NCBI GenBank assembly: GCA_001770725.1
Contig: MERU01000001.1
Coordinates: 186,001 to 250,000 of the forward strand
Length of the DNA stretch: 64,000 nt
Source: Burkholderiales bacterium RIFCSPHIGHO2_01_FULL_63_240
Lineage (GTDB): Bacteria; Pseudomonadota; Gammaproteobacteria; Burkholderiales; Burkholderiaceae_C
Reading direction: 5' to 3'
In this document: positions 1 to 8,379 of the stretch, one piece after another
How the letters are laid out: each line of letters begins with the position of its first letter
Numbering within the stretch: the stretch's first letter is position 1
Translations under genes and position numbers: made by a program
Notes under the pieces: generated by a model
The model's database searches: none
What the model was told of the DNA's origin: nothing
What the model saw: the letters and a program-made list of their open reading frames with translations, nothing else

Positions 1-682
1 ACTCCTCGCAGGCCCGCTCGCACATGGCCACCGTGACGGGGTTGGCCTGAGGCAGCCGCAAAGCCAGCAGCCTGCCATCGAATGACAAGCTGTTGCTGCG
101 GGCGCCGAATTCAGGTCGAACCCCCACCCCACGCACCAGGTGTTCGAGGCGGCCGACGCCGCGCTCGACGGTGTGCTGAAGGGTGAACCGAGACAAGACA
201 AACTCGGGGCCCAGCACCTCCTTCATGAGTCGGGCGGCCGCCGCCACATCTCGCTCGACCAGGAAGCGCTGCACCGCAGGCTCGACCTCGGGCGCCTCGA
301 AGCCCACGGTGTACACCTCGCCGTCCAGGGCACCCGATATGCGGCAGAACGCAAACGTCAGCGGAACGAACCGCAAGGCCAGCGCCATGGCCTCGCCAGC
401 GGTCGCGCTGCTGATCAAACCCAGCCCCCACAGCCCGTACGAGGCGAAGTTGTAGCGCATGCCCACTTCCAGCCCCAGTCCGGGCTGCCTGCACGCGCGG
501 ATGAGGTTGCCCACCACGCACAGCTCCTGGCTGGCATCGACTTCGATGGACAGGTCCGCCAGATCGGCTTCTTTCAGGCCCGAGCGAGCCAGGAGCTTGG
601 CGACGTCCAGGCCGCGTTCCTGTCCGAACTCGACCAGCAGCCTCACGCTCGCCGAACTGCGCTTGAAATCCCAGAAATTCAT
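1..682 (-). CDS. AraC-family regulator, VirS-like (partial, runs off the left edge)
   Basis: Reading the minus strand from an ATG at 682 gives an open frame to the window edge (227 codons), with no stop. The protein starts MNFWDFKRSSASVRLL and has the look of the N-terminal arabinose-binding-like domain (PF12625 type) of VirS/OruR-like AraC regulators, including a segment near YGLWGLGLISSATAGEAMAL. The C-terminal AraC helix-turn-helix must lie outside the window. An in-frame GTG eight codons upstream is an alternative start; neither has a clear ribosome site. It is divergent from the fused monooxygenase-esterase gene at 827, the usual position for a local activator of such genes. The DNA-binding domain is inferred, not seen. 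Confidence 0.8.
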   Translation of the reverse strand, partial: MNFWDFKRSSASVRLLVEFGQERGLDVAKLLARSGLKEADLADLSIEVDASQELCVVGNLIRACRQPGLGLEVGMRYNFASYGLWGLGLISSATAGEAMALALRFVPLTFAFCRISGALDGEVYTVGFEAPEVEPAVQRFLVERDVAAAARLMKEVLGPEFVLSRFTLQHTVERGVGRLEHLVRGVGVRPEFGARSNSLSFDGRLLALRLPQANPVTVAMCERACEE

Positions 683-735
683 GGAGGGCCGATGAAGGGT
701 GAACACCGATGCGTTTGGCCCAAATCATAAAGCGT

Positions 736-749: not shown

Positions 750-826
750 CATTCACGATGCCGGTGGGGGTGCGCATGATTCGCGCTCGACGAACAGACC
801 TTCGTCGCAACGTGAGGTTTCAAGAC

Positions 827-3304
827 ATGCAGCGAAAAGGCCCCGAGGGCAGCGCCCCCTTTCACACCATCATCATCGGCTCGGGCTTCGCCGGCATCGG
901 GATGGCCATCGCCTTGAAGAAGGCGGGGCTGGGCGATTTCCTCATCCTGGAAAAGCAGGGCGACGTGGGTGGCGTGTGGCGAGACAACACCTACCCAGGC
1001 GCCGCTTGCGACGTGCCCTCGCACCTGTACTCGTTCTCGTTCGAACCGAACCCGAACTGGTCACGGGTGTTTGCTCGTCAGGCCGAGATCCATCAATACC
1101 TGCAGCACTGCGCCCGCAAATACGACCTGCTGCCCTCCATTCGCTTTGGCTGCGAGGTGGCTGGGGCGAGCTTCAACGAAGGCCTCGCGCTGTGGACCGT
1201 GACCTTGACCAATGGCCAGGTGCTGCAAGCCCGTCATGTGGTCGCGGCCACCGGGCAACTCAGCCGCCCGGTTTACCCCAAGCTGGAAGGCATGGAGCAG
1301 TTCCAGGGCCACGTCTGCCACTCGGCCCTGTGGGACCACAGCCATGACCTGAGTGGCCAACGCGTCGCGGTGATCGGCACCGGCGCCTCGGCCATCCAGT
1401 TCGTGCCCGCCATCGCAGACCAGGTGAGCCAGCTGACGGTGTTCCAGCGCTCGGCTGCGTACATCCTGCCGCGCCCTGATGGCCCCTATGCAGGCTGGCG
1501 CAAGGCCTTGTTCAACGCCCTGCCCTGGACGATGAAGCTGCACCGCGCCCGCATCTACGCCCAGTACGAGAGCCGGGCCATCGGCTTCACGCGCATCAAG
1601 TCCGTGATGGAGCTCGCGGGGGGCCTGCCCTTCAGGGCGCTGCTGCGCAAGCAAGTGCAAGACCCGGCGCTGCGCGCGCAACTGACGCCCGACTACCCCA
1701 TCGGCTGCAAGCGCATCCTGCTGTCCAACGACTACCTGGCCACCATGGCCAGGCCCAACGTGAACCTGGTCACCCAAGGCATCCGCCGCATCACGGCCGA
1801 TGGCGTCGAGACGGTGGATGGGCAACACCACCCCTTTGATGCGATCGTCTACGGCACCGGCTTTGCGGCCACGGAGTTCCTGGCGCCGATGACGATCACG
1901 GGCCGAGGTGGGCTTGAGCTCAACGAGGCATGGCAAAAGGGCGCGCAAGCCTACCTGGGCATGACCGTGCCCGGCTTCCCCAACTTCTTCATGCTCTATG
2001 GCCCCAACACCAACCTGGGCCACAACTCCATCATCTACATGCTGGAGAGCCAGATCGCCCACGTGATGCGGTGCATGAAGGCCGCCGACAAGGCAGGCGC
2101 CAGCACGGTGGAAGTCGATGCACAGCGCCACACCCGCTTCAACAGCACCATCCAGGACCGCCTGCGGGCCACCGTCTGGCAAGGGTGCAAAAGCTGGTAC
2201 GTGGACGCCAACGGCCACAACAGCACCAACTGGCCGGGCTTCACCTTCGGCTACCGCTGGCTCACGCGTCACTCGTCGCTCAAGGCCTACCACTTCAGCA
2301 GCCCCGATCGCCGCGGCGGGCAGGTGGTGCGGCACGCCGAGCCATCGGGCTTGGTCGAGTCGGTCAGCGCGGGCGTGTTGAGGGCCTTGCTACGCCTGTC
2401 GTTCAAGACCCTGATTCGTCCCCCCTTCGGCGTCGGCACGCAGCGCTTCGTCGTGAGTGCCCTCGCGCGGCTGATGCCCGCGGTCGGTGGCGTGCACATC
2501 GAACGCCAATCGGTCGACGGCATGCCCGCGGAGGTGATCTCACGCCAGGAGGCCCCGGGCCAAGGCCCCGTGGTCCTCTACCTCCACGGTGGCGGCTTTT
2601 GCGTGGGAAGCGCCCGAACCCATCGCAGCGTGACGACCCGCCTGGCCGCTGCAGGCATGACCGTCTGGGTGCCGAACTACCGCCTTGCACCGGAACACCC
2701 TCACCCCGCTGCGCTGGAAGACGCGCTGTCTGGCTACCGTCACTTGCTTCGCCAAGGTGTGACACCTCAGCGGATCGTGGTCTGCGGCGATTCCGCTGGC
2801 GCAGGCCTGGCGCTGAGCCTGGCGTTGAAGCTGCGTGATGCGGGCGAGCCTTTGCCCGCAGGGCTGATGCTGCTGTCACCCTTCCTGGACACGAGCTTGT
2901 CGGGCGACACGGTCCGCTCCGCGTCGGCGCGTGATCCCATGCTCCACGTGGCTTGGCTGAAGCAGGCCGTTGGCTGGTATGCGCCGCCGAACGAACAACA
3001 GCTGCTGGACGCCGACCTTCAGGGCCTGCCACCCATGCTGATCCAGGTGGGGAGCGATGAGGTGCTGCGATCCGACTCGAGCCGGCTGTGCGCGCAGGCC
3101 ATGCACTGTGGCGTGCCCTGCGAGCTGGAGGTCTACGAGGGCCGCTGGCATGTGTTCCAGCTTCAAGCTGGCTTCCTCGCCTCGGCGACCCACGCCGTGA
3201 GCCGCCTGGTCGCCTTCGCCTTGCACAGGACGCGATGGCAACCTGCGCAACACCGCCCCCATCGGGTCGATGGCGATCCCGCCGCGCGGGCCATCGCGCA
3301 CTGA
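827..3304 (+). CDS. Fused flavin monooxygenase (Baeyer-Villiger type) and HSL-family esterase
   Basis: This 825-residue protein has two complete enzyme domains. Residues 1-520 are a flavin-containing monooxygenase: FAD-binding GSGFAG at 18-23, the BVMO-type fingerprint FxGxxxHxxxW at 159-169 (FQGHVCHSALW), and the NADPH Rossmann GTGASA at 184-189. Residues 530-825 are an alpha/beta-hydrolase of the hormone-sensitive-lipase family: oxyanion motif HGGG at 587-590 and nucleophile GDSAG with Ser656, followed by a plausible Asp (GSDEV) and His (RWHVF). Separate proteins encoded at 5044 and 6555 match the two halves in order. The start at 827 is chosen because GAGG lies 9 bases upstream; an upstream ATG at 758 lacks one. 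Expected chemistry is ketone to ester, then hydrolysis; the substrate is unknown. Confidence 0.85.
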   Translation: MQRKGPEGSAPFHTIIIGSGFAGIGMAIALKKAGLGDFLILEKQGDVGGVWRDNTYPGAACDVPSHLYSFSFEPNPNWSRVFARQAEIHQYLQHCARKYDLLPSIRFGCEVAGASFNEGLALWTVTLTNGQVLQARHVVAATGQLSRPVYPKLEGMEQFQGHVCHSALWDHSHDLSGQRVAVIGTGASAIQFVPAIADQVSQLTVFQRSAAYILPRPDGPYAGWRKALFNALPWTMKLHRARIYAQYESRAIGFTRIKSVMELAGGLPFRALLRKQVQDPALRAQLTPDYPIGCKRILLSNDYLATMARPNVNLVTQGIRRITADGVETVDGQHHPFDAIVYGTGFAATEFLAPMTITGRGGLELNEAWQKGAQAYLGMTVPGFPNFFMLYGPNTNLGHNSIIYMLESQIAHVMRCMKAADKAGASTVEVDAQRHTRFNSTIQDRLRATVWQGCKSWYVDANGHNSTNWPGFTFGYRWLTRHSSLKAYHFSSPDRRGGQVVRHAEPSGLVESVSAGVLRALLRLSFKTLIRPPFGVGTQRFVVSALARLMPAVGGVHIERQSVDGMPAEVISRQEAPGQGPVVLYLHGGGFCVGSARTHRSVTTRLAAAGMTVWVPNYRLAPEHPHPAALEDALSGYRHLLRQGVTPQRIVVCGDSAGAGLALSLALKLRDAGEPLPAGLMLLSPFLDTSLSGDTVRSASARDPMLHVAWLKQAVGWYAPPNEQQLLDADLQGLPPMLIQVGSDEVLRSDSSRLCAQAMHCGVPCELEVYEGRWHVFQLQAGFLASATHAVSRLVAFALHRTRWQPAQHRPHRVDGDPAARAIAH

Positions 3305-3345: not shown

Positions 3346-4263
3346 ATGAACCCTCGCCGCTACCCCAACACCTCGCATGTGCGCGTGCGCTCCATCAAGT
3401 CCACGTTCATGGCCGAGGGGGCCCTGTGCGCGGCCACGCTTCACCTGCCCCAGGACACCGCCCCAGATCAGCAGTTGCCCGCCATCCTCATGGTGGGCGG
3501 CTGGGGCAGCATCCAGATGGCCCTGACTTCTTCGTTCACCCACAGCTTTGTCGAGGCCGGCCATGCCGTCATGGAGTTCGACTACCCGGGCTGGGGCGAC
3601 AGCGGCGGCTTCCCGCGCCAAGGCATCAACCCCTGGCGCAGAACGCGCGTGGCCGACACGGCGCTGGTCCACCTGAAGTCGCAACAGCAGGTGCTGGCCC
3701 ATGACATCACACTGTGGGGCACGTCGTTCGGCGGCGGGCACGTGGTGGACCTGGCCACCCAGCACCCTGAACTCAAGGGCGCCATCGTCCAGGTGCCGAT
3801 GCTCGATGGCCTGGCGGCCACCTTCGCCACACCGCCGGGCAGGCTCATCAAGCTGATCGGGCTGGGTCTGATGGACCAGCTCAAACCGGGCGCCCCGATC
3901 ACCATCCCGACCCTGGGGCGCGAGGGTGATTTCGCCACGATGGACCGCGACGGAGGCTGGGACGCCATGGCGTCCGCCCTGGCCGCCTACCCGGATCACC
4001 GGTACGACAACCGCGTGGCGGCGAGGTCGGTGCTCACCATGCCGCTGTACCGTCCCTGGCTGCGCCTGAAAGACGTGCAGATCCCGATGCTGATGATCGG
4101 CGCCACGGGCGACACGGTGGCGCCCTTCGTGTCAGACAAGGTCAAGCGCGTGGGCAACCCGAACGTGCAGGTGATCGAGGTTGATGCCAACCACTTCGAC
4201 CCCTACTTTGACCCGCTGTTCCCGCAGATGCTGGCGCATCAGTTGGCGTTCTTGCGCCGGTGA
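3346..4263 (+). CDS. Alpha/beta-hydrolase
   Basis: A 305-residue alpha/beta-hydrolase fold protein. Visible are an early GGWGS loop after the first strands, the nucleophile elbow GTSFGGGH with Ser127, and a C-terminal DANHFDPYF segment that could supply the catalytic His. Its style is that of dienelactone-hydrolase or YcjY-like proteins rather than the HSL family next door. It starts 41 bases after the fused monooxygenase gene on the same strand, so it is probably cotranscribed and acts in the same pathway. No signal peptide is seen, so it should be cytoplasmic. The frame is open further upstream, but that part overlaps the previous gene and has atypical composition, so the ATG at 3346 is preferred. 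Confidence 0.8.
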   Translation: MNPRRYPNTSHVRVRSIKSTFMAEGALCAATLHLPQDTAPDQQLPAILMVGGWGSIQMALTSSFTHSFVEAGHAVMEFDYPGWGDSGGFPRQGINPWRRTRVADTALVHLKSQQQVLAHDITLWGTSFGGGHVVDLATQHPELKGAIVQVPMLDGLAATFATPPGRLIKLIGLGLMDQLKPGAPITIPTLGREGDFATMDRDGGWDAMASALAAYPDHRYDNRVAARSVLTMPLYRPWLRLKDVQIPMLMIGATGDTVAPFVSDKVKRVGNPNVQVIEVDANHFDPYFDPLFPQMLAHQLAFLRR

Positions 4264-4302: not shown

Positions 4303-4953
4303 TCAAGCCATCAGCTTGAGCAAGCCTTGATACGGCAGCAGGTTGGTCCGCACCACCTTGTCCAGCGGCTCCGCGAACCCGTCCTGCATCCAGCGCGCCG
4401 CCAGCAGCACGTTCAGGCCGATCATCCCGTCGGCCAGCAGGTCAAGGTTGACCTCGTCGGCGCGCGCAGCAGGCACCAGCAGGTGCAGGTGCTGGCGCAT
4501 CATGTTCGAGTAGTCGCGCGCGGTGGCGCCACTCAGCGCGGCCACCTCGTCGTTCACGCCCAATGAGTCGACCAGCATGATGCGGCCCCGGCGGGGGTCA
4601 TCGCGGATGAACTCCAGGAACACGCGAATCGCCGGCTCCAGCATGCCCAGCGGCGTGGGCTCGGCCTCTTTGAGCACCGCCAGGGTCTGCGACATGAGCT
4701 GGTCGCGCAGCTCGCCGTAGGTGGCCATGAACAGCTGCGGCAGCGTCTTGAACGACTCGTAGAAGTAGCGCTCGGTCAGGTGGGCGGCCACGCACACCTC
4801 GCGCACCGTGGCGGCGTGAAAGCCCTTGGTGCCAAACACCTCGACGGCGCCCTCGATGAGCTTGGCACGGCGAAGCCGCTGCCGCTCTTCGGGCAGGACC
4901 CCGCCATAGCGGCGGCGCGGGGACAGGGGCGAGGTTGGCGTCGGGGCTTCCAT
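4303..4953 (-). CDS. TetR-family transcriptional regulator
   Basis: A 216-residue TetR-type repressor. An N-terminal helix-turn-helix is visible near residues 30-75 (AVEVFGTKGFHAATVREVC, then LTERYFYESF), followed by a helical ligand-binding domain. The ATG at 4953 is chosen because AGGGA lies 6 bases upstream; longer in-frame starts would run through the operator region. It is divergent from the flavin monooxygenase at 5044 with two TTGACA-type dyads in the 90-bp gap, so it very likely represses that operon and itself. The ligand is unknown; a fatty-acid-like or ketone substrate of the operon would be a natural guess. Confidence 0.88.
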   Translation of the reverse strand: MEAPTPTSPLSPRRRYGGVLPEERQRLRRAKLIEGAVEVFGTKGFHAATVREVCVAAHLTERYFYESFKTLPQLFMATYGELRDQLMSQTLAVLKEAEPTPLGMLEPAIRVFLEFIRDDPRRGRIMLVDSLGVNDEVAALSGATARDYSNMMRQHLHLLVPAARADEVNLDLLADGMIGLNVLLAARWMQDGFAEPLDKVVRTNLLPYQGLLKLMA

Positions 4954-4966
4954 GGAGATCCCTATG

Positions 4967-5012
4967 TTGACATGGATCATTGTCAAAGTTATTCTGACAA
5001 GAATCTTTGTCA
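4967..5012. promoter_or_regulatory. Promoter with two tandem operator dyads (TetR / monooxygenase)
   Basis: Two inverted repeats lie in tandem: TTGACA (4967-4972) with TGTCAA (4981-4986), and TGACAA (4995-5000) with TTGTCA (5007-5012), centres 27 bp apart. On the plus strand TTGACA at 4967 is followed after 17 bases by TATTCT (4990-4995), a good sigma-70 promoter for the monooxygenase operon. The dyads therefore cover both the -35 and the -10 elements, as expected for repression by the adjacent TetR protein. Confidence 0.65.
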
Positions 5013-5043
5013 AAAGTCAAGGCATCTTCGGGGACAAGCCACC

Positions 5044-6558
5044 ATGAAACCGCAACACTTCCACTCTCCCGCCGCCGCCCAGGCCCCGGGTGGCGAAGGC
5101 GTCGAGCGCCACCGCATCATCGTCGTCGGCACCGGCTTTTCGGGGCTGTGCATGGGCGTCAAGCTGCGCGAACAGGGCGAAGAAGATTTCGTGCTGCTCG
5201 AACGCGCGGGCGACGTCGGCGGCACCTGGCGCGACAACACCTACCCTGGTTGCGCCTGCGACGTCGAGTCGCACCTGTATTCGTTCTCGTTCGAGCCCAA
5301 CCCGAACTGGTCGCGCCTGTACGCCCCGCAGCCCGAGATCTTCGCCTACCTCAAGCACGTCGCCACCAAGTACGACCTGCTGCGCCACATCCGCTTTCAC
5401 GCCAACCTCACCGGCGCGCGCTGGGACGAGGCCCGCAAGCTGTGGGTGGTCAAGGCCGAAGACGGCCGCGTCTTCGAAGGCGAGATCCTGGTCTCGGGCA
5501 TGGGCGGCCTGAGCAACCCGGCCTACCCCAACGTGCCCGGCATCGACAAGTTCGAAGGCCGCGCCTTCCACTCCGCCACCTGGGACCACGGGTTCGACCT
5601 GGAAGACAAGCGCGTGGCCGTGATCGGCAGCGGCGCCAGCGCCATCCAGTTCGTGCCCGCCATCGCGCCCAAGGTGGCCCACCTGACCTACTTCCAGCGC
5701 ACGCCGCCCTGGGTTGTGCCCAAGATGGACCGCCCCGTGCGCCCCGACGAGCGCGCCGACTTCGCCGCCAACCCCTGGCGCCAGCAACTGGCCCGCACCA
5801 AGCTGTACTGGATGCTGGAGGCGCGCTTTCTGGCCTTCAAGTTCAAGCCCGAATGGATGAACCTGGTGGCCAAGGTGGGCAAGCACCGCATCCGCAAGCA
5901 CATCAAGGACCCGGCCCTGCAGGCCAAGCTCACGCCCGACTACACGCCCGGCTGCAAGCGCCTGCTGATCTCCAACGAGTACTACCCAGCCCTCGCGCGC
6001 ACCAACGTCGAGGTGGTCACCGAGGGCATCAAGGAGGTCGTGCCCAAGGGCGTGGTCACCCAGGACGGCCAGTTCCACGAGGTCGATGCCATCATCTTCG
6101 GCACCGGCTTCAAGGTGCAGGACCCGATCCCCAAGGGCACTGTGCATGGCCGCAACGGTGCCGATTTGGCCGAGGTCTGGAAGCAAGGCGCCGAGGCCCA
6201 CATGGGCATCGCCGTGGCGGGCTTTCCCAACTTCTTCATGCTGATGGGGCCCAACACCGGCCTGGGCCACAACTCCATGGTTTTCATGATCGAATCGCAG
6301 GCGCACTACATCCTCGAGGCGATCAAGGCCATGAAGGAGCAGCGCATCCGCGCCCTCGACGTCAAACCCGAGGTGCAAAAGCAGTTCGTCGACGGGGTTC
6401 AGAAAGAGCTTGAACGCACCGTGTGGCAATCAGGCTGCAAGAGCTGGTACATCAATGAGCAGGGCCGCAACACGGCGGCGTGGCCCGGCTTCACCTTCGC
6501 CTACCGTCTCAAGACCCGCCGCTTCAAACTCAAGCAGTACCAGGCAGAACGCGCATGA
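5044..6558 (+). CDS. Flavin-containing monooxygenase (BVMO / MymA-AlmA-like)
   Basis: A 504-residue class B flavin monooxygenase. It has FAD-binding GTGFSG at 29-34, the fingerprint FEGRAFHSATW at 170-180 that fits FxGxxxHxxxW, and the second Rossmann motif GSGASA at 195-200. It is a full-length paralogue of the first half of the fused protein at 827; both contain NTYPG, SHLYSFSFEPNPNWS and GHNS stretches. Its stop overlaps the start of the next esterase gene (ATGA), and an SDR gene follows, giving a three-gene operon. Related proteins oxidise long-chain alkanes (AlmA), ketones, or mycolate precursors (MymA); the substrate here cannot be read from sequence. Confidence 0.88.
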   Translation: MKPQHFHSPAAAQAPGGEGVERHRIIVVGTGFSGLCMGVKLREQGEEDFVLLERAGDVGGTWRDNTYPGCACDVESHLYSFSFEPNPNWSRLYAPQPEIFAYLKHVATKYDLLRHIRFHANLTGARWDEARKLWVVKAEDGRVFEGEILVSGMGGLSNPAYPNVPGIDKFEGRAFHSATWDHGFDLEDKRVAVIGSGASAIQFVPAIAPKVAHLTYFQRTPPWVVPKMDRPVRPDERADFAANPWRQQLARTKLYWMLEARFLAFKFKPEWMNLVAKVGKHRIRKHIKDPALQAKLTPDYTPGCKRLLISNEYYPALARTNVEVVTEGIKEVVPKGVVTQDGQFHEVDAIIFGTGFKVQDPIPKGTVHGRNGADLAEVWKQGAEAHMGIAVAGFPNFFMLMGPNTGLGHNSMVFMIESQAHYILEAIKAMKEQRIRALDVKPEVQKQFVDGVQKELERTVWQSGCKSWYINEQGRNTAAWPGFTFAYRLKTRRFKLKQYQAERA

Positions 6559-7463
6559 GCATCCAGTCCTTCATCACCAACCTCGTCCTGCGTCACCAGT
6601 TCAAACGCCAGGGCCGCGGCAAGCTGGACGTGCACAAGGCGCGGCACATGGTCAACAAGATGGCCAAGCGCTACCCGCCGCCGCCGCGCGACATCGAGCA
6701 CCAGCCGGTGGCCGCCCGCCCCGAGCACAAGCTGTGCGCCGCCGAGTGGCTCAGCGTGGCCAACCCGCAGCGCACCATCGTGTACTTCCACGGTGGCGGC
6801 TACTTCTTCTGCGGCCTGGAGACCCACCGCCCCACCTGCGCCTACCTGGCCCGCACGGCCCAGGCCCGCGTGCTGTCGGTGGACTACCGCATGGCGCCTG
6901 AGCACGTCTACCCCGCCGCCGTCGACGACGCCGTCGCCTGGTGGTCCGAGCTGCTCAAGCAAGGCGTCGACCCGAAAAGCGTGCTGTTCGCCGGTGACTC
7001 CGCTGGTGGCGGCCTGACCCTGGCCTGCCTGGTGGCCTCGCGCGACCAGGGCCTGCCCCTGCCGGCCGGCGCCATCCTCTTCTCGCCCTGGAGCGACCTG
7101 TCGTGCTCGGGCGAGACGATGAAGACCCTGGCCGACGCCGACGTGATGTTCAACCCGCACTCGCTGCCCGAAGCCGCCGCGCTGTACCTGGCCGGCAAGC
7201 CCACCGACACGCCGCTGGCATCGCCGCTGTTTGCCGACCTGCGCGGCCTGCCACCGCTGATGATCCATGCCAGCAAGCACGAGATCCTGCTGGCCGACTC
7301 GACCCGCCTGCACGAGCGCGCCAAGGCCCAGGGCGTGACCAGCGAGCTGCACCTCAAAGCCAAGATGCCGCACGTGTGGCCCACCATGCTGATGCTGCCC
7401 GAGGCCCGCCAGACGCTCAAGGAATGCGGCGAGTTCGCCGTCCGCGTCACCGGCAAGCGCTGA
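6555..7463 (+). CDS. HSL-family alpha/beta-hydrolase (esterase, LipR-like)
   Basis: A 302-residue family IV (hormone-sensitive-lipase-like) esterase. The oxyanion motif HGGG is at 79-82, the nucleophile motif GDSAGGG has Ser149, and later segments HEILLADS and MPHVW carry the likely Asp/His partners. It overlaps the monooxygenase stop by four bases, so the two are translationally coupled. The equivalent domain is fused in frame in the paralogous gene at 827. In this context it likely hydrolyses the ester made by the monooxygenase. It is cytoplasmic as far as can be seen. Confidence 0.87.
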   Translation: MSIQSFITNLVLRHQFKRQGRGKLDVHKARHMVNKMAKRYPPPPRDIEHQPVAARPEHKLCAAEWLSVANPQRTIVYFHGGGYFFCGLETHRPTCAYLARTAQARVLSVDYRMAPEHVYPAAVDDAVAWWSELLKQGVDPKSVLFAGDSAGGGLTLACLVASRDQGLPLPAGAILFSPWSDLSCSGETMKTLADADVMFNPHSLPEAAALYLAGKPTDTPLASPLFADLRGLPPLMIHASKHEILLADSTRLHERAKAQGVTSELHLKAKMPHVWPTMLMLPEARQTLKECGEFAVRVTGKR

Positions 7464-7497: not shown

Positions 7498-8379
7498 ATG
7501 AAAGACTTCAAGAACAAGGTCGCGGCCATCACCGGCGCCGCATCCGGCATGGGCCGCACGCTGGCCGTCGAGCTGGCCCGCCGCGGCTGCCACCTGGCGC
7601 TCAGCGACGTCAACGAAACCGAGCTGGTCAAGACGGCCGAGCTGGCTTCCAAGCATGGCGTGAAGGTCACCGTCAAAAAGGTGAACGTGGCCAGCCGCGA
7701 CGAGGTCTTCGCCTGGGCCGACGAGGCCGCGCGCGACCATGGCAAGGTCAACCTGGTGTTCAACAACGCCGGCGTGGCGCTCACCGCCACCGTCGAAGGC
7801 GTCAAGATCCAGGACTTCGAGTGGATCATGGGCATCAACTTCTGGGGCGTGGTGCACGGCACCCAGGCCTTCCTGCCCCACCTGAAGAAAAGCGGCGACG
7901 GCCACGTCGTCAACACCTCCAGCCTGTTCGGCCTGATGGCCGTGCCCACCCAGGGCACCTACAACGCCAGCAAGTTTGCCGTGCGCGGCTACACCGAGGC
8001 CCTGCGCATGGAGCTGGAGATGGAAGGCTGCGGCGTCAGCGCCACCTGCGTGCACCCGGGCGGCATCGCCACCAACATCGCCATGGCCGGCAAGATCGAC
8101 GAGTCGGTCACCGCCAAGACAGGCGTGAGCGAGGCCGACCACAAGCGCATGGCCAACAAGCTCATCAACGTGACGACCGCCGAGGCCGCCGCGCTGCAGA
8201 TCCTCAAGGCGGTGGAGAACAACGAGCGCCGCGTGCTGGTCGGCCCCGACGCCCGCTTCCTGGACAAGGTCGTGCGCCTGCTGGGCTCGACCTACCAGGT
8301 GCTGGTGATGAAGCAGGTGCGCAAGATGAACGGCGCCCGCCGCTCGTCGGCCCAGCAAGCAGCACGCAACGCCGGCTGA
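7498..8379 (+). CDS. Short-chain dehydrogenase/reductase (SDR)
   Basis: A 293-residue classical SDR. The nucleotide-binding motif TGAASGMG lies at 12-19, NNAG is present after strand 4, and the catalytic YxxxK is Tyr155-Lys159 (YNASK) with a Ser in NTSS upstream. It starts 34 bases after the esterase gene with a CCAGGAG-like ribosome site, so it is the third gene of the operon. It would oxidise an alcohol released by the esterase or reduce a carbonyl. Its position matches sadH in the mycobacterial mymA operon. Confidence 0.88.
   Translation: MKDFKNKVAAITGAASGMGRTLAVELARRGCHLALSDVNETELVKTAELASKHGVKVTVKKVNVASRDEVFAWADEAARDHGKVNLVFNNAGVALTATVEGVKIQDFEWIMGINFWGVVHGTQAFLPHLKKSGDGHVVNTSSLFGLMAVPTQGTYNASKFAVRGYTEALRMELEMEGCGVSATCVHPGGIATNIAMAGKIDESVTAKTGVSEADHKRMANKLINVTTAEAAALQILKAVENNERRVLVGPDARFLDKVVRLLGSTYQVLVMKQVRKMNGARRSSAQQAARNAG

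Follow-up and report, generated by a model that had tools for sequence, protein, structure and literature searches.

A single-chain Baeyer–Villiger monooxygenase–esterase in Burkholderiales: a predicted ketone-cleaving enzyme with a probable single origin and probable repeated loss of its esterase half

Baeyer–Villiger monooxygenases (BVMOs) convert ketones to esters, and esterases of the HSL family hydrolyse esters. The window analysed here, a 64,000-nucleotide stretch of Burkholderiales DNA whose genus is judged from named relatives to be Aquabacterium, contains a gene on the forward strand (827–3304) in which enzymes of both types appear to be joined head to tail, which raises the questions of whether the fusion is genuine, from which genes it arose and what its product might do. 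The answer that we consider probable is that the gene encodes a bifunctional ketone-cleaving enzyme, that fusion in this order (BVMO first, esterase second; the forward fusion) occurred once, and that the esterase part was subsequently lost several times within the genus and separated again in one other lineage (G284). To our knowledge, no enzyme of the forward-fusion clade has been assayed, and we infer both catalytic activities, the substrate and any coupling between the two steps from sequence.

Positions 827–3304 form an uninterrupted frame of 825 codons plus a stop, encoding a protein of 825 residues and 90.1 kDa. An alternative in-frame ATG lies upstream at 758 and would yield 848 residues; the start at 827 is favoured because a GAGG sequence (814–817, forward strand), a probable ribosome-binding site by match to the consensus only, lies 9 nt upstream of it. 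The type I BVMO domain (about residues 1–490; 827–2296, forward strand) has an FAD-site Rossmann motif (GSGFAG at residue 18) and a second Rossmann motif (GTGAS at residue 184) on either side of the type I fingerprint FxGxxxHxxxW(P/D), which occurs as FQGHVCHSALWD at residue 159 followed by Asp. A GCKR motif begins at residue 293; its Arg296, which we take to be the active-site arginine of type I BVMOs, aligns with the steroid monooxygenase motif GAKR and does not vary among 17 aligned sequences. A linker (about residues 491–512; 2297–2362, forward strand), whose limits are estimates from alignment with split enzymes, leads to the HSL-family (type IV) esterase domain (about residues 513–800; 2363–3226, forward strand). 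This domain contains the oxyanion motif HGGG at residue 587, the nucleophile elbow GDSAG at residue 654 (with Ser656), a putative acid residue, Glu745, which aligns with a Glu of EstD11 (consensus of the aligned rows, VGxxExL), and WHVF at residue 774, which includes His775. A tail of 25 residues (801–825; 3227–3301, forward strand) completes the chain. The single frame with BVMO and HSL-esterase motifs described by the sequence-only reading is thus present, with all of the motifs located.

Pfam models agree with this division, assigning Pyr_redox_3 and FMO-like families to the N-terminal half and Abhydrolase_3 to residues 583–778 of the C-terminal half (E 1.8e-50). The best NCBIfam matches of the two halves, PtlE (220.7 of 1100 bits) and GESAG_HSLs (222.7 of 430 bits), both missed the curated cut-offs, and the fusion is not assignable to either family. 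The GC content along the gene is 0.63–0.69, and that of third codon positions is 0.77–0.95. An AlphaFold2 model of the whole chain, built with 17 sequences, has a mean pLDDT of 63.5 and a pTM of 0.47, which is too poor to judge contact between the domains.

The same two-domain frame was found by protein search at 19 other loci, in the Aquabacterium group, Burkholderia, Hydrocarboniphaga and other genomes, so the full-length single-chain relatives proposed as a check on the fusion do exist. All 20 forward fusions checked are single frames, which rules out a sequencing artefact or a lost stop codon; these 19 further loci, together with purifying selection on both domains (see below), indicate that the fusion is not an artefact. 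Forward fusions occur in at least 6 of 299 genomes of the family (G000, G159, G194, G153, G015 and G026), and one more (G315) was found among 369 genomes of the class (E 1e-130). Among 21 loci of named relatives, nine are fused, namely those of five Aquabacterium MAGs and one each of a Leptothrix MAG, a Comamonadaceae bacterium, a Proteobacteria MAG and a Hydrocarboniphaga MAG. Plasmids also carry the fusion, including those of B. glumae, B. stagnalis, B. cenocepacia and B. arboris: 58 plasmid records matched at 1e-140, of which 55 are from Burkholderia and 53 cover at least 80% of the query. A looser plasmid search gave 80% coverage in one place in 109 of 1487 records, in which a place may join neighbouring genes. 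The B. glumae BGR1 fusion is annotated as an alpha/beta hydrolase fold domain-containing protein; the corresponding locus on a B. glumae BGR49S plasmid is annotated as two reading frames, in contrast to the single one of BGR1.

Both halves of the protein appear to be kept for function, as judged from low dN/dS values in comparisons with five fused relatives (BVMO, 0.13–0.19; esterase, 0.20–0.24). The linker gives 0.19–0.38, and the weakly constrained last 25 residues give 0.66–1.66 over the four comparisons for which a value was obtained. By pattern matching, the BVMO fingerprint, the second Rossmann motif, GCKR, HGG[GA], GDSAG and WHVF are present in all 20 forward fusions (the oxyanion motif being HGGG in 11 and HGGA in 9); GxGxxG, a narrow pattern, matched 16 of the 20, and the acid pattern matched only the window's own row. 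Evolutionary distances of the two domains agree closely (Mantel r 0.891 over 20 rows, with 0 of 9999 permutations as high), and the esterase domain differs more than the BVMO domain (slope 1.36). The idea of the esterase half as a dead passenger is not supported by its conserved motifs and dN/dS. It has also been considered that this half serves mainly to stabilize or regulate the BVMO, or has unrelated esters as its substrates, with fusion merely fixing a 1:1 ratio. Its greater divergence and its absence from many relatives would suit such a role, but the conservation of its catalytic motifs in every fused copy, the purifying selection acting on it, and the recurrence of BVMO and esterase both as neighbours and as fusions in either order make that role decidedly unlikely.

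The trees of the two domains bear on the history of the fusion. A careful tree of 53 esterase rows unites all 20 forward-fused esterases, together with the split esterase of G284, in one clade (100/99), and because all of the fused esterases fall together, they are most simply explained by one ancient fusion. The 46 rows of the careful BVMO tree include one clade of 40 (100/100), made up of the 20 fused rows, 19 rows consisting of a BVMO only and the split G284 BVMO, in which fused and BVMO-only rows are interleaved. Placement of the fused rows in a single clade is rejected (p-AU 6e-10), as is that of the nine core fused rows of the genus (p-AU 1.2e-5). The fused/unfused label needs 10 changes on this tree, at least seven of which are forced by well-supported branches; a quick BVMO tree of 71 rows needs nine, four of them forced. 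Under the simplest reading, one fusion would have been followed by repeated loss of the esterase, a direction that counts of changes cannot prove. Some BVMO-only rows (G139, G674 and the G000-C13 group) lie deep in the BVMO clade, and the BVMO-only state could therefore be old there; recombination could also have interleaved the two states.

Within the genus, 26 of 42 genomes have a match at 1e-190 or better, and these comprise 10 with a fusion and 16 with a BVMO only; the other 16 genomes have no match at that threshold. Two of the ten fused genomes (G000 and G682) have a BVMO-only copy besides the fusion. Identity between BVMO-only genes and the BVMO half of the window protein reaches 91% (in A. 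parvum). Two BVMO-only copies (L054 and L114) have an early in-frame stop and may be broken genes or assembly faults. In the window, the fusion is followed by a second alpha/beta hydrolase gene, which is not of the HSL type (3346–4263, forward strand), and is preceded by a divergent AraC-type regulator gene (Arabinose_bd and HTH_18 domains) that runs off the window (1–706, reverse strand). When 22 of the 26 genomes (G000, G670, G684 and G697 being left out) were searched for the downstream hydrolase, its coordinates placed it directly beside the gene in all nine fused genomes and in 10 of the 13 BVMO-only ones; the remaining three (G671, G666 and G674) lack it. In addition, 20 of 21 Aquabacterium-group loci have an AraC-type gene upstream, no more than about 2 kb away, the exception being L055. 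These shared neighbours indicate that fused and BVMO-only genes are largely one locus, with or without the esterase part. The hydrolase is distantly related to the UilS lactonase (92.7 of 400 bits); as a guess, it might replace the lost esterase in BVMO-only species.

Traces of a missing esterase part are kept in two lineages only. The end of the BVMO-only gene of G241 (L013, 2926–3051) resembles the extreme C-terminus of the fused protein: the DNA match scores 41, compared with 25 for the next place in the gene and at most 37 for codon shuffles, 0 of 2000 of which scored as high. This match is likely to be a deletion scar. At the start of its linker, the same gene showed no clear similarity in DNA to the fused linker (score 18, compared with 22 at other places), so only the C-terminal end is counted as a trace. 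In the A. olei plasmid pTB101 (L101, 7523–7609), a fragment matching the middle of the esterase is present in another frame at the end of the BVMO-only gene; it is short, with 13 of 29 residues identical to the window protein. Because this stretch is identical in A. olei and G669, the two count as one lineage. Of 13 BVMO-only loci searched for esterase remnants, that of A. olei alone gave a distinct match (E 3e-5; the strongest of the remaining 12 reached 0.014). The remnants suggest that the esterase part may have been lost repeatedly, with the BVMO remaining at the locus. They also bear on the opposite history, in which BVMO-only genes came first in the genus and gained the esterase by repeated insertion, or recombination spread fused alleles. 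The roughly ten state changes on the BVMO tree are blind to gain and loss and so fit this history equally, as do the deep BVMO-only rows, but it would leave unaccounted for the traces in G241 and A. olei/G669, the single clade of fused esterases with distances that track those of the BVMO, and the fusions outside the genus that share this clade. We regard it as unlikely, and one fusion followed by several losses remains the preferred account.

Regarding the source of the fusion, the window itself offers a candidate. A separate BVMO gene (5044–6558, forward strand) and a separate HSL-type esterase gene (6555–7463, forward strand) encode the two enzymes individually, with the ATGA overlap that the sequence-only reading had pointed out. 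They are flanked by a divergent TetR-type regulator gene (4303–5013, reverse strand) and by a short-chain dehydrogenase (SDR) gene (7498–8379, forward strand). That the fusion arose by local joining of this pair, or of its duplicate, is suggested by the matching enzyme types and gene order, the overlap and a distance of 1.7 kb, but it is extremely improbable on the sequences: the pair is only 48% (BVMO) and 36% (esterase) identical to the fused halves, compared with 52–58% and 41–47% for nine pairs of other families. A tree that unites its BVMO with the fused clade is rejected (p-AU 0.0005), and its esterase falls with G108 and others, outside a clade of 42 rows that holds the fused esterases, although the deepest split is weak (75/33). 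In the phylogeny of each domain, then, both halves of the pair belong elsewhere and the pair is not the parent of the fusion. The earlier proposal that the window holds both the ancestral-like and the fused states is accordingly not upheld; what stands of it is the genuine single chain of both enzyme types and the existence, elsewhere, of overlapping split pairs. The window's own genome (C6) also carries a TetR–SDR–esterase cluster (L091, 3946–6874), in which the SDR and TetR are 76% and 42% like those of the window's second cluster and the esterase is 44% like the fused one.

The nine pairs mentioned above come from an esterase search of 398 genomes of the phylum, in which at least nine of the loci listed have a BVMO gene just upstream of the esterase gene (eight in family f161 and one, G878, in f198). 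At all nine, the esterase gene has an in-frame ATG that, if it is the real start, would give an overlap of 17 nt. The quick BVMO tree has these pairs as a branch of an unresolved fork to which the fused clade belongs as well. The esterase tree places the f161 pairs next to a group (99/94) made up of the fused clade and four esterases of the genus, three of these having no BVMO match beside them; the G878 esterase adjoins esterases of the reverse order (see below). An overlapping BVMO–esterase pair of the f161/f198 kind is therefore a plausible ancestor. The forward fusion would have arisen once, probably from adjacent overlapping genes of this type, such as other families of the class still possess.

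In the split pair of G284, a possible TTG start of the esterase gene overlaps the BVMO stop by 4 nt. Because its BVMO is nested beside that of Hydrocarboniphaga (99/95), the two enzymes were probably separated again in this lineage; a tree in which the G284 esterase lies apart from the fused rows is, however, not rejected (p-AU 0.073).

Fusions in the opposite order, with the esterase first and the BVMO second, are also present. Among the matches listed for the 299-genome family sample, to which this count refers (the class search having been run at a stricter cut-off), eight genomes have such a fusion in one frame (G202, G007, G091, G025, G276, G152, G103 and G163); G050 has one with a partial BVMO match, and G063 is alike as judged from the match table only. 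The corresponding loci are L031, L032, L033, L034, L035, L037, L135 and L138, with L137 partial. On named plasmids, 11 records matched the reverse fusion at 1e-100, none over more than 80% of the query. Reverse fusions form a separate clade in both the BVMO tree (7 rows, 100) and the esterase tree (8 rows, 100/99). A common origin of the two orders, with forward and reverse fusions as one clade, is contradicted by the esterase tree (p-AU 0.0076), and the BVMO tree leaves room for it (p-AU 0.088); the opposite domain order by itself needs a separate event or a permutation. Seven genes neighbouring reverse fusions were sampled (at L092, L093, L096 and L098): an alpha/beta hydrolase, a DCC1/COQ7 gene, a response regulator, two redoxin-like genes and two without a family; a shared ketone pathway was not seen among them. 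It is possible, and we put it forward tentatively, that a two-step ketone-cleaving chain was built at least twice in one family, in opposite orders, and that tethering hands the ester over faster than diffusion would. If so, the benefit would be proximity rather than a dedicated tunnel, given that the domains occur in either order and that a gene can do without the esterase.

The neighbours of the forward fusions point to a putative role in ketone catabolism. In B. glumae, the order is AraC, aldehyde dehydrogenase, GMC oxidoreductase and fusion, and a GMC gene lies directly upstream of the fusion also in Hydrocarboniphaga, G153, G026, B. stagnalis, B. cenocepacia and B. arboris; the surroundings of the G194, G015 and G315 fusions gave no GMC match. 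An AMP-binding gene is located by the G284 pair, an acyl-CoA dehydrogenase gene by the G315 fusion, and SDR genes by those of G153 and L041. The AraC type of regulator, frequent beside these genes, is also that of VirS of M. tuberculosis. In the pathway that we propose, an alcohol would be oxidized to a ketone by a GMC oxidoreductase or an SDR, and the N-terminal BVMO would use FAD, NADPH and O2 to convert the ketone to an ester or lactone, a product that the esterase tethered at the C-terminal end would hydrolyse to an acid and an alcohol.

Pairing of these enzymes is known from separate genes in ketone pathways and proposed alkane pathways. The acmA–acmB operon of Gordonia sp. TY-5 encodes a BVMO that makes methyl acetate and an esterase that hydrolyses it (PMC6215540), which by description is the enzyme pair of the window fusion, but as two proteins. 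The mymA locus of M. tuberculosis, likewise compared by description, combines the regulator VirS with the MymA monooxygenase, the probable esterase LipR and the acyl-CoA synthase FadD13 (PMC10272862); a regulator thus stands beside a monooxygenase and an esterase as in the window, but the proteins are separate and are implicated in cell-envelope lipids. For Thalassolituus oleivorans, a subterminal alkane oxidation has been proposed with the BVMO TOL_0709 and the esterase TOL_0906, following the same sequence of secondary alcohol, ketone, ester, and acid plus alcohol; the evidence for this is proteomic, with metabolite data, and the genes are separate, with distant locus numbers (PMC6304351). 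By sequence, the best solved relatives of the N-terminal half are the steroid, cyclohexanone and phenylacetone monooxygenases (PDB 4AP3, 5M0Z and 1W4X), which lack an esterase part, the best match spanning the half in two stretches with 255 bits; those of the C-terminal half are EstD11 (PDB 7AT3) and the esterase 9IZT, chains of 296–297 residues without a monooxygenase.

Chemists make artificial BVMO fusions, and natural ones with an esterase are now seen. The engineered alcohol dehydrogenase–cyclohexanone monooxygenase fusions join the BVMO to the preceding step and not to an esterase (PMC5624969). No description of a natural BVMO–esterase fusion was found in the literature searched, from which most subscription papers were out of reach. 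The genes found here comprise natural fusions in both orders, a locus that is fused in some members of a genus and esterase-less in others, and split pairs among relatives. With them, any advantage of tethering consecutive enzymes can be tested directly, and the fusions would offer templates for turning ketones into acid and alcohol with a single chain. A further run of BVMO, lipase and dehydrogenase genes is present in a record labelled as Acinetobacter phage (CAKLQF020000036.1, 9224–12483), which looks like bacterial DNA.
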